A stretch of 64,000 bases of DNA, taken from assembly GCA_905479985.1 (NCBI GenBank), contig CAJQOM010000011.1, positions 1-64,000 on the forward strand. Direction: 5' to 3'. How positions within the stretch are numbered: position 1 is the first letter of the stretch; every line of letters starts with the position of its first letter. Positions 1,752 through 9,067 of the stretch are shown here, piece after piece. Origin of the DNA: an uncultured Gammaproteobacteria bacterium (GTDB lineage: Bacteria; Pseudomonadota; Gammaproteobacteria; Nitrosococcales; Methylophagaceae). The notes beneath the pieces are model-generated. The model worked only from the letters and a program-made list of their open reading frames with translations. It did no database searches and had not been told where the DNA came from. The position numbers were made by a program, and so were the translations under genes.

Positions 1752-2576
1752 TTAAGCCATTGCTAATTGTTGCTGTGTGCCGAGCAATTGATTAACGTTG
1801 ACAAAAAAGCAATTGGGCATGCCCTCATTGATATAAATGCCATCAACAGCGTGTTTGGTTGATTGTATGACACCCATCGGCCCAGTTTCACATGATTGGA
1901 AGCCTGTTATTGGATAAGATAAAACATCATTTATTTGATCAATTAACAGTGCGTAACTTGGCGTCTTTCCATCTGTTGTTAAATACAATAATACTTGTCT
2001 TACCGTCGTTTTCAGGTGTTTTCGAGCACGATCCAACCTCTGTTCAATCTGTTCGAGAATTACCGCCTTTTGTTGGTTAAATAAAATATCCGCTTGTTGC
2101 CACTGCTGTTCGGCTGTCAATGTTATTAATTGTTCCAAGCAGTGTTTAAATGCTGTTTTAGGCTCGTCTATTGAGCTCAATAGGGTCTGCAGAGTCACAT
2201 CGCGTATCTGAATGTGATGATGCCAATTTAATAAATTCGCATTTTGCCATAGTTCTTTGTTAGCTAAAGGTTGATGCGCGGTCAGTTTCCACTGTATCTC
2301 TTGACACCAATCTTGGTAACCTTGCTGTACCGTTTCAAATTGAGTCAATAAGGCATTTTTCTCATCAGTACCAGAGCGTAGGCCAATACGAGCAGCAAAA
2401 TCGATCACAGGGATAGCGCTTTTTTGCAGTTTAATCATCCCTGCCACACCCACTTCTTCAAAAGGTAAGGTTTCTATGGCATTAATATCTTGGCCTAATA
2501 ATAAAATATCGGCGACATCCAGACCAAAGAGCTTATCTTCGACATAAAATGTCATTACTTCCTTTCGATCTGCCAT
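1752..2576 (-). CDS. CheW-like domain protein with a helical insertion
   Basis: A 274-residue soluble protein. Residues about 6-66 read as the first half of a CheW domain (VMTFYVEDKLFGLDV, then an IPVIDFAARIGLR stretch). The last ~80 residues read as its second half (SYALLIDQINDVL, then GPMGVIQ and VDGIYI). Between them lies an insertion of about 120 residues rich in Trp and His, mostly helical, which might be a divergent zinc-binding CZB-like region. CheW proteins couple receptors to CheA; what this one couples is unknown, since no cheA or receptor gene is in view. I chose the ATG at 2576 because a purine-rich AGAG lies just upstream; a TTG at 2639 would add 21 residues in the same frame. 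Confidence 0.7.
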   Translation of the reverse strand: MADRKEVMTFYVEDKLFGLDVADILLLGQDINAIETLPFEEVGVAGMIKLQKSAIPVIDFAARIGLRSGTDEKNALLTQFETVQQGYQDWCQEIQWKLTAHQPLANKELWQNANLLNWHHHIQIRDVTLQTLLSSIDEPKTAFKHCLEQLITLTAEQQWQQADILFNQQKAVILEQIEQRLDRARKHLKTTVRQVLLYLTTDGKTPSYALLIDQINDVLSYPITGFQSCETGPMGVIQSTKHAVDGIYINEGMPNCFFVNVNQLLGTQQQLAMA

Positions 2577-2701
2577 TTTCTCTTTAACTCTTCTTCTCTC
2601 GTCATTTAAAGTTATCAATTCAACCTTTAAATACGCCAATAATGTGTTTCACAACTATCGTAAGTTAGATCATGAAACTACTATAAGCTACTGACTTAAC
2701 G

Positions 2702-4156: not shown

Positions 4157-7048
4157 TTATTTATGTTTCGGTGGATCTTTTGCTTCTGCCTCAATATGCC
4201 AAACATTCGTTAAGAGCTCATCCAGCGTCTCGTCATCTGGTAGAGGGCCTTGATTAAAGGCTAAAAAATCGAAGTCTGATGACACTGTTTTTGTTTGCAT
4301 AGGGGCCAATTCGGCTTCAGCTTCTGGCTCGGCTGCAACTTCTGGCTCAGCTGCAACTTCTGGCTCAGCTGCAACTTCTGGCTCAGCTGCAACTTCTGGC
4401 TCAGCTTCAACTTCTGGCTCAGCTTCAACTTCTGGCTCTGCTGCAACTTCTGGCTCTGCTGCAACTTCTGGCTCTGCTTCAACTTCTGGCTCGGCTGCAA
4501 CTTCTGGCTCGGCTTCAGCTTCAGCTTCTGGGTCTGGGTCTGGGTCTGGCTCAGCTAGCGCAGATAAATCTACTTCTATATCAGATTCAAAGCCATTTTT
4601 ACCATATATATCAGGCGTTTTATTTTTCCATTGTTCACTCACGAAATCAGCCAATGTGTTAATCACTATTTCGTCGTCAATTTCTTCTGCCGATACAGCT
4701 TCTTCGACAGGTGCTTCACCCTCTTCAATATCTAAAGATGATGCCGCTACGTCTTTTTCTGGTACTTCAATTTCATTATGTTGAAGCTGGGCTGTCTTAT
4801 CTCTTAGTCTTTGTCTTAATTCTTCGAGCGTTAGTGCTTCTTCAGGTTCTGGGTCAAGTTCTTGCGTGACTTCAACTTCTGGCTCGGCTTCAACTTCGGG
4901 CTCAGCTTCAACTTCTGGTTCGGCTTCTGCTTCTGGCTCAGCTGCAACTTCTGGCTCAGCTGCAACTTCTGGCTCGGCTTCAACTTCGGGCTCTGCTTCA
5001 ACTTTTGGCTCAGCTTCAACTTCTGGTTCGGCATCAACTTCTGGCTCGGCTTCAACTTCGGGCCCAGCTGCAACTTCTGGTTCGGCTGCAACTTCTGGCT
5101 CAGCTGCAACTTCTGGCTCGGCTTCAACTTCGGGCTCTGCTTCAACTTCTGGCTCAGCTGCTACTTCAGGCTCGGCTGCTACTTCTGGCTCGGCTGCAAC
5201 TTCTGGTTCGGCTGCAACTTCTGGCTCAGCTGCAACTTCTGGCTCAGCTGCAACTTCTGGCTCAGCTGCAACTTCTGGCTCAGCTGCTACTTCTGGTTCG
5301 GCTGCAACTTCTGGCTCGGCTTCAACTTCTGGCTCGGCTTCAACTTCTGGCTCGGCTGCAACTTCGGGCTCGGCTTCAACTTCTGGTTCGGCTTCAGCTT
5401 CTGGTTCGGCTTCGGCTTCTGGCTCGGCTGCAACTTCTGGCTCGGCTTCTGCAACAATCGCTGACAATAATGCTTCTTCTGACTCAAAGCGCTCTTCGAT
5501 TTCAGATTCTAATTCGCGTACGTCGACTGGCGTTTCACTATTATCACTCTGTTGATTTAATTGATCATTTTCAATGTCAGCCATAATGGCAGCCAACTGA
5601 CCTTCTTCTGTCTCAAGCTCAGAAGTTTTCGCTGGTGTTGTTGTGCTTTCTTGGGCGGCAGTGGCTGAATCAACGGCGGCCGCCACTGATTCAGCTTCAT
5701 CCTTTTTTAGATCGGGATCTCCTGGCTCGGTATCTTCACCGATATTGGCCATAATCGCCGCTAATTGTTCTTCTTCAGTCTCAAACTGTTCGCCCTCTGG
5801 TTCAGATTCGCCTACTGAACTTGTGTCCTGCGCTTGCGCCAATAAAGCATCAATATCATCAGCAAGTGGCTCGTCAGCAACAACTTCATCTAATAAGGCA
5901 TCAATATCATCGGCTGCTACATCAGGCACTGTCACTTGTTGTGCTGCGGACTCTATCTCTGTCGATGCGCCATTTAGAATCGCGTCGATATCTTCTTCAT
6001 CGAGATCTTGTTCTGTCGATGCTTGATTCAGAATTGCATCAATATCCTCAATATTAACGTCGTCGCTTTGTTCCGGTACGGCAGCTACTTCTGCAGCGCC
6101 GCCGACCTGATTTAAGATTGCTTCTATATCATCATCTGCCGTGCTCTCTCCAACGACAACATCTGGTTCAGGTGTCGGTTCATCTTCTTCTTCGATGGCG
6201 GCAAGGTCAACACCGGTGTCAAATAAATCATCTACGCCTATATCTGATAATAAGGCATCAATATCATCCTCTGAGACTAACTCTTCTTCCGCCTGTTCGA
6301 CCTCAGCATCGGCTTCAACGGCCTCTTCTATCAATGTTTCTTCAGGCTCGACTTCATTTAATTGCGCAATAATATCTTCCGGCGCAGGTGCTTGTACTAC
6401 ATCCTCTGGCTCATTTAATGTCTCAGCGTCTTCAACTGCTGTTGCTTGTTCGATTGGCGCTAGTTCTTCTGGTTCTGGGGCTTCCTCTACCGCTATTGTA
6501 CTTTCAGCTTCCGGCACCAGTTCGGCCGATGTTTGCGCTATCAATGCGCCACTACTTAAACGACGGAAACCTTCGACGAGTTCATCGACTTTCACTGCTG
6601 TGGCAGTAACTGTTTCGGTCAGTGCCGACGTTTCTATTTTAGCTTCTGCTGTGCTCGACACCGACGCATCATTACCAACAGGCAATAAACTCAAACAAGC
6701 ATCAATGGCATTTTCTAGTTGTGTCGGGGCCGCTTTCAGCGCCTTAGTATCTTGTTCAACAAATAAAGCCAACTGGGCTTTGTATATTTTCTGCTCGCGA
6801 CTTTGAAACTCTTCTGCAGCCTGCTTTAGCGCTTGTCCCGTTAAACCATATTTTTCAGACAATATCGTTGTCAGTTGCTCAATACGGCGATCTTTGAGAC
6901 GCTTTATTTTCTTGACGGCAGTCGCCGCATCCGCTTGTACCTGTTTGTCTTTTTTATGTGCCCTAAATAACAACCATGCACTTAAAAGACCAAAAATAAG
7001 CGCCAATTCATAGGCTAGCATTTGGAATGTTGGATCTGTCATGTCCAT
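4157..7048 (-). CDS. Acidic, repeat-rich single-pass membrane protein (function unknown)
   Basis: A 963-residue protein that I do not recognise. One membrane segment lies near residues 11-28 and is followed by RAHKKDK, so the bulk is predicted cytoplasmic. Residues 35-115 are a charged helical region, probably coiled coil. Residues about 260-403 contain six copies of an (E/D)DID-A-LL/IL motif, and 420-535 contain three copies of a related EEQLAAIMA-type motif. Two arrays of a degenerate hexapeptide (E-P-E-V-A/E-A) follow, at about residues 531-727 and 836-911, encoded by an 18-base unit. The ATG follows directly on the stop of the upstream VWA gene, with an AGGAG ribosome site inside that gene's end, so the two are translationally coupled. 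The array length may be uncertain in the assembly. Confidence 0.8.
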   Translation of the reverse strand: MDMTDPTFQMLAYELALIFGLLSAWLLFRAHKKDKQVQADAATAVKKIKRLKDRRIEQLTTILSEKYGLTGQALKQAAEEFQSREQKIYKAQLALFVEQDTKALKAAPTQLENAIDACLSLLPVGNDASVSSTAEAKIETSALTETVTATAVKVDELVEGFRRLSSGALIAQTSAELVPEAESTIAVEEAPEPEELAPIEQATAVEDAETLNEPEDVVQAPAPEDIIAQLNEVEPEETLIEEAVEADAEVEQAEEELVSEDDIDALLSDIGVDDLFDTGVDLAAIEEEDEPTPEPDVVVGESTADDDIEAILNQVGGAAEVAAVPEQSDDVNIEDIDAILNQASTEQDLDEEDIDAILNGASTEIESAAQQVTVPDVAADDIDALLDEVVADEPLADDIDALLAQAQDTSSVGESEPEGEQFETEEEQLAAIMANIGEDTEPGDPDLKKDEAESVAAAVDSATAAQESTTTPAKTSELETEEGQLAAIMADIENDQLNQQSDNSETPVDVRELESEIEERFESEEALLSAIVAEAEPEVAAEPEAEAEPEAEAEPEVEAEPEVAAEPEVEAEPEVEAEPEVAAEPEVAAEPEVAAEPEVAAEPEVAAEPEVAAEPEVAAEPEVAAEPEVAAEPEVEAEPEVEAEPEVAAEPEVAAEPEVAAGPEVEAEPEVDAEPEVEAEPKVEAEPEVEAEPEVAAEPEVAAEPEAEAEPEVEAEPEVEAEPEVEVTQELDPEPEEALTLEELRQRLRDKTAQLQHNEIEVPEKDVAASSLDIEEGEAPVEEAVSAEEIDDEIVINTLADFVSEQWKNKTPDIYGKNGFESDIEVDLSALAEPDPDPDPEAEAEAEPEVAAEPEVEAEPEVAAEPEVAAEPEVEAEPEVEAEPEVAAEPEVAAEPEVAAEPEVAAEPEAEAELAPMQTKTVSSDFDFLAFNQGPLPDDETLDELLTNVWHIEAEAKDPPKHK
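4313..4540. repeat. 18-base tandem repeat array, short block
   Basis: About 12 copies of a degenerate 18-base unit (plus-strand form close to GCAACTTCTGGCTCAGCT) inside the acidic membrane protein gene. The copies encode E-P-E-V-A/E-A on the minus strand. Copies differ mainly by GCA versus TCA and by synonymous changes. Slippage at such arrays commonly changes copy number. Confidence 0.9.
4866..5455. repeat. 18-base tandem repeat array, long block
   Basis: Just over 30 copies of the same 18-base unit as the shorter block at 4313-4540, separated from it by about 325 bases of non-repeat coding sequence. A central run of about nine units encodes identical EPEVAA hexapeptides and is the most homogeneous part, pointing to recent expansion. 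The array keeps several reading frames open on both strands, which creates false open frames. Confidence 0.9.
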
Positions 7049-9067
7049 TTATAATTGCTCTCCTGGATTTTTACTGGCGGCTGATTTGCGCCGCCACATG
7101 AAGAAGGCGAGTCCTACTATCAGTAATAAGATAGCATTTCCGACCATCAACATCGACGACGAAATTTCTCCCGTTGGAGCCTCTTCCTCTTCAGTAAGAT
7201 CATTGCCTAATTCGCCGAAGTCATCATCACCTACGGGTAATAGTTCATCAATATCACTGCTGAATTCATCTGTTAGCTCAATTTCATCGAGTGGACTCAA
7301 TTCATCTAACTCGTCTACCTCATCTAATGGCGAGAGTTCCTCAACTTCTTCAAGCAAATTCTCTTCTGGGGTCATACCGTCTGGCTTTTCCTCTTTTGCT
7401 TCTTCTGCCTCTGCGACTTCTTCTAATAGCGCCAATTCATCGGATATTTCTTCTGATAAATCAGGTATTTCAGGCGTTTCAGGTTTGGTTTCATCAAGCA
7501 ATACAATTTGATTTGGTTGCAAAAATAGCGCGCGGCCTTTTAAGGTTTCACCTTTAATTTGTAGATTAATTTTATATTGTTGTGCAGCCTCTAATTCCGC
7601 TAACGTCAGCTGCCAACTGTCTTCTTCTGATTTGAGGACATCATAAGACCATTCGCTGCCATCTTCCGCTGTTAGCATCGCTGCAATACTGATTTTTTTA
7701 GTATCAACTAAGCTCGCGTCTGGTTTGAGTGTTACACGATGCGTACGTGTCACTTCATCCATTAACTGTTCAGTCGAAATGGTAAAGGGCATTTCAACCA
7801 CATTGACGCTTTGACGTCTTTGGCGTTCGAATGTGCCACTTGTTAATGTGGTAACCACATCATTTCTGCCCGGTTGGAAAGTTTCACCCACTTGCGAGCG
7901 GTAATTACCTTTACGTAAGCTTGGATTAAGATCCTCTTCGACCAGATCTGTCATCTCATTTTCATGTGCTAGTTTTGCATTCACTAAGTTTAAAAAGCTT
8001 TCACGCACAATCATTTCGTTTTTATTGGTTAAATTGACGTCAAAATCAAATGTCTCACCAATCAAGATATTATTGGGTAAATCTGTTGTTTTTAGTTTTA
8101 AGTCCGTTAACACCATCACGCGATTGTCTGGGTCTAAGGCAGCATCAATTGCCCACTCTCCGACTTGCGGTTCAGCAATGGTAATCAAGTCATAACCCGA
8201 CTCGCTACTCTGCCAACGTACCGTGTCATTATCACTTAGGCTTGTAAGCTTATTTTGGTCTGGTTGAATAAGCACTGTTGGCTTTGCGTCGGCTTGTCTG
8301 AAAACTAACACTGTCATTTCAGTCACGCTGTCATCAATCTTAAACGTGTTTTCTTTTAAAGGTACGGTGTCTCTTTTTGCCGCTTTCTCAAATAGGTGTA
8401 AGAAAACACGTTGCAGTTGTTCGGCATCATCGACTTGTTCGTACCAGCCATCGGTTTCCAATGCGATTTCTCTTAATAGTTCCTGATCCGAACCAGATGA
8501 TAAAGCAATGGTATGAACCGCAATATTCGCTTGTTTTAGTTTTGGTACGACTTCATTCAAAATTCGCTTTCTTGATGTCTCGCTGGCTTTCGGATCGGTT
8601 GAAATATCAACCAGTCCATCTGACAACAAAATGACGCTTCGACGTAACTTATTATTTGGCTTAGTTTGATTGGCTGTTGCCTTATTTAATACCTGTTCGA
8701 TATCGGTAAATAGACCATTGGAATGAATTTTCCCAGTCTGTTTTTTGGCATCAGTGCGCCACTTTTTCGTGACCTCTCGGTGTGGCACCAACATGTTGAC
8801 GTATTTTGCAAAGGTCCAAACGCCCGCTTTTGATTGATCGGGCAATAAGCCAACGATCATTTCTAAGGCTGGCGTCCTTAAATTTTGAGGATCATTTTTT
8901 TTCATACTACCGGACACATCTATCAGGATTCTGACATCTCTGACCGGTTCATCAGCGGCGAGAACCTGCCGGTTAGACAATACCAATGTCAGAAAAACGA
9001 ATAGCAGTAAAATTTTATTGGTACGTAGCATAAGGCAATAACCCATTGTTTTTATTAACCACTTCAT
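7049..9067 (-). CDS. von Willebrand factor A domain membrane protein
   Basis: A 672-residue exported protein. A signal peptide covers about residues 1-37 (ending QVLA); a start at Met13 (9031) is also possible. A VWA domain follows at about 42-220, with an intact metal-site motif DVSGS at 50-54 and a later LLSDG. The middle looks like beta-rich, Ig-type domains. Residues about 540-635 are very acidic with repeats such as SPLDE and a DIDELL motif. A membrane segment at about 639-658 is followed by WRRK, so the VWA part faces the periplasm. VWA domains bind proteins through a bound metal ion. It is the first gene of a two-gene unit with the acidic repeat protein; the ligand is unknown. Confidence 0.8.
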   Translation of the reverse strand: MKWLIKTMGYCLMLRTNKILLLFVFLTLVLSNRQVLAADEPVRDVRILIDVSGSMKKNDPQNLRTPALEMIVGLLPDQSKAGVWTFAKYVNMLVPHREVTKKWRTDAKKQTGKIHSNGLFTDIEQVLNKATANQTKPNNKLRRSVILLSDGLVDISTDPKASETSRKRILNEVVPKLKQANIAVHTIALSSGSDQELLREIALETDGWYEQVDDAEQLQRVFLHLFEKAAKRDTVPLKENTFKIDDSVTEMTVLVFRQADAKPTVLIQPDQNKLTSLSDNDTVRWQSSESGYDLITIAEPQVGEWAIDAALDPDNRVMVLTDLKLKTTDLPNNILIGETFDFDVNLTNKNEMIVRESFLNLVNAKLAHENEMTDLVEEDLNPSLRKGNYRSQVGETFQPGRNDVVTTLTSGTFERQRRQSVNVVEMPFTISTEQLMDEVTRTHRVTLKPDASLVDTKKISIAAMLTAEDGSEWSYDVLKSEEDSWQLTLAELEAAQQYKINLQIKGETLKGRALFLQPNQIVLLDETKPETPEIPDLSEEISDELALLEEVAEAEEAKEEKPDGMTPEENLLEEVEELSPLDEVDELDELSPLDEIELTDEFSSDIDELLPVGDDDFGELGNDLTEEEEAPTGEISSSMLMVGNAILLLIVGLAFFMWRRKSAASKNPGEQL

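Follow-up and report, generated by a model that had tools for sequence, protein, structure and literature searches.

A flagellum-linked two-gene family of Gammaproteobacteria with FliM-, CheZ- and FliN-like peptide arrays suggests a scaffold or decoy tuning swimming

The acidic membrane protein P0001 of an uncultured gammaproteobacterium of the family Methylophagaceae, a relative of Methylophaga, carries, in its predicted cytoplasmic tail, six copies of a short motif that matches the docking peptides of FliM and CheZ, and together with its partner P0002 it belongs to a family with a strong link to flagella across the Gammaproteobacteria. The analysis suggests an undescribed scaffold or decoy which may tune swimming, most likely an array of switch peptides tethered to the membrane, which would hold phosphorylated CheY (CheY-P), or else FlhG, close to the flagellar pole. 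Both genes lie in a stretch of 64,000 nucleotides (contig CAJQOM010000011.1, positions 1 to 64,000), which is referred to as a whole as the window. It had been described before in a sequence-only reading, which proposed P0001 as a multivalent scaffold for CheY-like response regulators.

Two-Gene Module and Domain Organization

The gene of P0001 begins at the base right after the stop codon of P0002 (Table 1), and the pair is kept in relatives of the genus and family. A scan of GTDB genomes revealed 80 loci across many gammaproteobacterial groups; in almost all loci with enough downstream sequence, the next gene encoded a protein with a transmembrane (TM) helix and a coiled coil. Many of the compared genomes are metagenome-assembled and their contigs often stop inside repeats. 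Outside the relatives of Methylophaga no neighbour besides the VWA gene and its partner was generally kept, and for this reason the CheW-like gene, the FAD oxidoreductase gene and greB were rejected as members of the module. The CheW-like gene, which the sequence-only reading had placed 2 kb away, does exist about 1.5 kb past the end of the acidic gene and is restricted to some Methylophaga relatives. The CheW-like proteins of loci L050, L060, L063, and L064 retain the zinc-ligand residues HIEW...ECxFGKW...HRxIH, which are lost in the copy of the window.

P0001 is predicted to consist of an N-terminal TM helix with a cytoplasmic helical hairpin and coiled coil (residues ~6-174), followed by a disordered acidic tail. 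The structure model of residues 1-190 showed a single long TM helix, a helical hairpin and a coil. When 29 partner N-termini were aligned, an invariant Glu was found at the start of the TM segment (Glu14 in P0001), and the common coil read ENxxLxxELxxTMxxMLxEYSxMF. This Glu and the nearly invariant Asn644 in the TM helix of P0002 are candidates for an intramembrane contact. Searches of Pfam and NCBIfam with P0001 yielded no credible match, a PARP match being due to low complexity, and no FliM domain (PF02154) was detected by Pfam, the one FliM of the genome being encoded elsewhere; a search for folds like that of the helical N-terminal part gave no match below E 0.6. Two arrays of AEPEV repeats in the tail look neutral, and in several relatives the contigs stop or enter N inside the corresponding 18-bp repeats. 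Another short repeat, (F/L)E(T/S)EE(E/G/A)(Q/L)L(A/S)AI(M/V), is present in three copies, at window positions ~5750-5785 and in two later places, and also occurs in relatives.

The model of P0002 comprised the VWA domain, three beta sandwiches, a disordered stretch and a TM helix, its PDB matches in Foldseek were VWA and Ig/FN3 proteins, and the DxSxS motif of the VWA domain is apparently intact. From residue 234, after the VWA domain, P0002 matched TIGR03503 with 153 bits (E 9e-45), below the curated cut-off of 305.6 bits, and we regard it as a relative of that family with an added domain and not as an equivalog. TIGR03503 matched in 77 genomes of the class sample; this equals the count for the VWA profile, and on inspection the two sets coincided. 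Only one of them, G214, exceeded the cut-off, with a protein that has a signal peptide, the Ig-like part, a coiled coil, a TM helix and an RKRKNKG tail and no VWA domain; its gene adjoins dnaQ and rnhA, with no P0001-type neighbour with a long cytoplasmic tail. We take VC2233-VC2234 of V. cholerae to be dnaQ-rnhA, which would fit these neighbours. MotW of V. cholerae is made up of a signal peptide, three Ig-like domains, a coiled coil, a C-proximal TM helix and a short basic tail; the protein depends on HubP, and cells that lack it tumble less and swim more slowly (PMC8789113). The same signal peptide, three Ig-like domains, C-proximal TM helix and short basic tail are found in P0002, a likeness drawn from the published description of MotW; P0002 differs in its additional VWA domain in front and in being paired with a gene whose product has a long cytoplasmic tail. 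Given this topology and the TIGR03503 match, P0002 is probably, with fair confidence, a VWA-bearing relative of MotW (VC2232), and TIGR03503, on which a literature search found no paper, is probably the MotW family. The single DIDELL that the sequence-only reading had assigned to P0002, on the other side of the membrane, was located at residue 605, on the periplasmic side of the C-terminal TM helix, and is most likely incidental.

Table 1. Features of the P0002/P0001 module and its neighbourhood in the window.
Feature	Residues	Position	Strand	Basis or remark
P0002, 672 aa	1-672	7049..9067	-	Signal peptide, VWA, three Ig-like domains, C-proximal TM, short basic tail
P0002 VWA domain, DVSGSM MIDAS sequence	44-221	8405..8938	-	Domain search, alignment
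P0002 three predicted Ig-like beta sandwiches (TIGR03503 part)	233-523	7499..8371	-	Profile match, model, fold search
P0002 C-proximal TM helix, nearly invariant Asn644	637-663	7079..7159	-	Alignment, model
P0001, acidic membrane protein, 963 aa	1-963	4157..7048	-	ORF; model of residues 1-190; 29 partner N-termini aligned
P0001 TM segment	~11-29	6962..7018	-	Alignment of partner N-termini, structure model
Unit 1, DDIDALL	261-267	6248..6268	-	Context SEDDIDALLSDIG; nearest, CheZ C-terminus QDDVDDLLSSLG
Unit 2, DDIEAIL	306-312	6113..6133	-	Pattern match, unit comparison
Unit 3, EDIDAIL	334-340	6029..6049	-	Pattern match, unit comparison
Unit 4, EDIDAIL then NGAS	352-358	5975..5995	-	Nearest, FliM QDEVDALLNGMD
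Unit 5, DDIDALL	380-386	5891..5911	-	Pattern match, unit comparison
Unit 6, DDIDALL	397-403	5840..5860	-	Pattern match, unit comparison
18-bp tandem repeat array, AEPEV(A/E) spacer repeats		4873..5447	-	Repeat search
Second 18-bp tandem repeat array, AEPEV(A/E) repeats		4321..4522	-	Repeat search
CheW-like gene with CZB-like insert		1752..2639	-	Neighbour, outside the conserved module

The DIDALL Units of P0001

The search of P0001 with the pattern [DE][DE]I[DE]A[LI]L gave six exact matches, all of the form [DE]DI[DE]A[LI]L, in an array that spans nucleotides 5840-6268 of the minus strand. They are the six FliM-like copies that the sequence-only reading had pointed out, including NGAS after the fourth. 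Unit 1 (peptide VSEDDIDALLSDIGVDD) is, as EDDIDALLSDIG, close to CheZ, while unit 4 (peptide DEEDIDAILNGASTE) is, as EEDIDAILNGAS, close to the FliM QDEVDALLNGMD of the same genome. In 20,000 residue shuffles of P0001 residues 181-540, only 0.004 units appeared on average, with a maximum of one. Between units, identity was 0.79 over the seven core residues and 0.14 in the flanks, the spacing was irregular (45, 28, 18, 28, and 17 residues) and different codons were used in 41 of 83 identical residue pairs. Therefore, the units are neither an accident of composition nor fresh DNA copies of the kind that form the AEPEV arrays in P0001.

In the whole 2.2-Mb genome the back-translated unit pattern was found at 13 sites, six of them in P0001, and the reversed control pattern at none. 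Four of the seven sites outside P0001 were located in large frames, once each (integrase, proB, glmM, and an M3-type peptidase), and the remaining three in frames of 28-68 codons. The unit region gave only conserpin, at E 1.5, in a PDB sequence search, and nothing relevant was returned by a literature search on EIDALL/DIDALL.

Similarity to FliM, CheZ and FliN Peptides

The FliM N-termini of 31 genomes read (S/T)QDEIDALLHGV, the CheZ C-termini (G)QDDVDDLLSSLGF, and the FliN N-termini (E)DPWAEAMDEQ or DDWAAAMNEQ; in the genome studied, FliM starts with MAAQDILSQDEVDALLNGM and CheZ ends with EQDDVDDLLSSLGF. Position-specific scoring matrices (PSSMs) of these three segments were compared with 100 non-redundant tails, taking the shuffles of each tail as its null (p ≤ 0.005), and column-permuted PSSMs, counted at a laxer threshold, served as controls. 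The FliM PSSM, built from the 31 N-termini, picked 15 of the 100 tails (permuted controls, 0-4) and the FliN PSSM nine (controls, 0-3), while the five tails picked by the CheZ PSSM were barely above background (controls, 1-4). P0001 itself reached p ≤ 0.005 against its own shuffles with both the FliM and the CheZ PSSMs. Since the CheZ class was near its controls, a claim on it alone was rejected and the combined FliM/CheZ class is claimed instead. The possibility that the units resemble just generic acidic linkers, named in the sequence-only reading, did not hold given the counts for the FliM PSSM and its permuted controls.

The chain of the CheZ structure 1kmi includes the C-terminal segment; we take this structure to be the CheY-CheZ complex. 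The EIDAL segment of FliM binds CheY (PMC6946799), and FlhG interacts with FliM/N via the FliM N-terminus (PMC12826062). The core of these docking peptides, (Q/E)DD(I/V)D(A/D)LL, matches the units of P0001. FliM and CheZ have one copy at a terminus, whereas the P0001 family has up to 14 putative docking copies, internal and in the disordered tail of a membrane protein. The FliN N-terminal segment DPWAEAMDEQ is absent from P0001 itself and has its counterpart in relatives with DPWADALAEQ arrays, which are nearly the FliN segment of their own genome.

Co-occurrence with Flagellar and Chemotaxis Genes

Full-length relatives of P0002 were found in 77 of 276 gammaproteobacterial genomes that were at least 90% complete, a sample in which phylogeny was considered solely via even sampling of the class. 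FliM was present in 74 of these 77 genomes and in 75 of the 199 others (Fisher p = 3.6e-21), and matches to the VWA domain only had no link to FliM (6/24). CheZ was detected in 68 of the 77 module-bearing genomes, and FlhF and CheA in 73 each. No strict DIDALL tail occurred in the four genomes lacking CheA, which are too few to count, and the idea that the motif is lost from tails where CheA has been lost was dropped. One genome (G359) has the module without FliM but with CheZ and FlhF, and the absence of FliM may simply reflect a gap in the assembly. Two genomes, G162 (locus L254) and G177, retain the VWA gene without FliM, CheZ and FlhF, and in G177 this gene is split into two frames, as would fit decay once flagella had been lost. 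The genome studied carries CheY, CheA, CheB, CheZ, FliM, FliN, FlhF, and FlhG, and throughout the class the module co-occurs with FliM and CheZ; the co-conservation with a CheY-like system on which the sequence-only reading depended is thus observed.

Among FliM-bearing genomes, CheZ was commoner with the module (67/74 vs. 45/75, p = 2e-5), while FlhF was not enriched (72/74 vs. 69/75, p = 0.28). These counts bear on the main rival explanation, which concerns FlhG, a MinD-like ATPase that counts flagella and binds the FliM N-terminus in monotrichous bacteria, with FlhF as its partner. In this explanation the units bind FlhG and not CheY, and the tail would be a membrane depot that retains FlhG, or subunits of the C-ring, at a single pole while assembly proceeds. 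It agrees with the FlhG-FliM/N interaction cited above, with an FlhF frequency as high as that of CheZ, with the flhF-flhG genes of the genome studied and with a membrane-anchored display, as would suit landmark-type proteins such as HubP and FipA. We consider it unlikely, given that the enrichment among flagellates is with CheZ and not with FlhF, that the CheZ-like C-termini of relatives point to CheY, and that genome G297, only 90% complete, combines a tail of two DIDDLL-type units with CheA and FliM and with no FlhF or CheZ over the cut-off. The CheZ-like forms and the link with CheZ favour CheY-P as the putative partner.

Motif Variation among Relatives

In a tree of 69 VWA proteins, 17 partner tails had the DIDALL motif (FliM- or CheZ-like), 21 had the W motif (FliN-like), counted by a loose pattern, none had both and about 45% had neither. 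At least four changes are required for the DIDALL tails and at least three for the W tails. Among the W motifs DPWADALAEQ is the clearest, and EEWAKLLEE, the form seen in the Thiodiazotropha group, matches less well. In one clade (G103, G095, and G108) the tail repeats DPWAEALAEQ/DPWADALAEQ resemble the FliN of the same genomes (DPWAEAMDEQ); we know of no partner of the FliN N-terminal peptide. In close relatives the number of units varied between 0 and 14, with one anchor copy, SADDVDALLAGID, in most of them and CheZ-like C-termini in some, e.g., SQEELQAILSSIPSFSDM. The turnover of units is high, as follows from the motif-less tails and from the close relative L045, which has only weakened copies (DDIETLL, DDIDVLI). 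A conserved CheZ-like C-terminus, xELQxILSSIPSFxxMNKK, is shared by L048, L049, L057, L060, and L066 and absent in P0001. In L058 (genome G020), 13 of the 14 units read xETDIDALL(E/D)QAE, indicating a strong recent amplification.

The same arrangement, which the sequence-only reading had suggested looking for in relatives, was found as regards the gene pair and those tails with DIDALL, but most tails are without it and others are FliN-like. Its scaffold idea is thereby broadened, with partial support, from one odd protein to a flagellum-linked family with two alternative flavours of switch peptide. The strongest argument for switch-peptide mimicry is the repeated gain of switch-complex peptides in a family tied to flagella. 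The units might instead be non-functional, drifting low-complexity acidic tails producing D-I-D-A-L-L helices by chance, as the AEPEV arrays in the same tail, the 14 near-identical units of L058, the fast turnover in L045 and the share of motif-less tails would allow. This is improbable in view of the contrast between core and flank identity with half of the codons different, the shuffle and permuted-PSSM controls, the repeated gains, the lineage-matched FliN flavour and the strong link to flagella. Binding of the units to C-ring subunits or export partners (FliG, FliH), with the envelope complex docking on the motor as a collar, is very doubtful: FliM-like or FliN-like C-ring peptides do occur within one family, mutually exclusive by clade, and a genetic interaction with FliG and FliM is reported for MotV/ZomB, which is likewise a client of HubP (PMC8789113), but the FliM N-terminal peptide is known for binding CheY and FlhG, not C-ring neighbours.

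Proposed Mechanism and Significance

In the preferred reading, that of a membrane-tethered display holding CheY-P, P0002 and P0001 would form a two-protein envelope complex of the flagellar system. P0002, with its VWA domain, three Ig-like domains and TM helix, would face the periplasm, its VWA domain acting as the periplasmic input, and P0001 would carry the output into the cytoplasm, its TM helix and coiled coil holding the disordered acidic tail. The tail would display copies of the CheY-docking peptide of FliM and CheZ and so may keep phospho-CheY at the membrane, close to the motor; the protein held could also be a CheY-like receiver, e.g., the one in CheV. The CheY-P held in this way could be a local reservoir or a competing sink that sets the switching probability, possibly under the control of the periplasmic VWA domain. 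We put this explanation forward as a whole tentatively, at a little under even chances. A switch decoy, in which a VWA sensor with a FliM- or FliN-like array titrates CheY-P near the pole and an adjustable number of binding sites outside the motor sets its bias, is conceivable, though on the unlikely side.

The proposal of a FliM-like multivalent scaffold is well supported at the sequence level, by the match and the flagellar link; its partner may be CheY-P or FlhG, as the CheZ C-terminus belongs to the same class and FlhG binds the FliM N-terminus, and nothing was found in support of the sigma-like partners suggested along with it. The polar landmarks HubP and FimV, linked to chemotaxis and flagella, also have an inner-membrane anchor and a long, acidic, repeat-rich cytoplasmic part (PMC12918733), in which P0001 resembles them; in contrast to them, P0001 showed neither a periplasmic LysM nor a C-terminal FimV/TPR domain in the Pfam and NCBIfam search. 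The genome has a separate FimV, matched by TIGR03505 in a gene other than P0001, and the part of it that was read has no DIDALL.

If the proposed mechanism is true, motor switching would be tuned, besides by kinase and phosphatase, by an envelope complex that displays the docking peptides of the motor itself, in a copy number that evolves fast. A large and unnamed VWA family with a link to flagella would thereby have a function and a connection to MotW, and would offer a natural system for multivalency and competition in CheY signalling.
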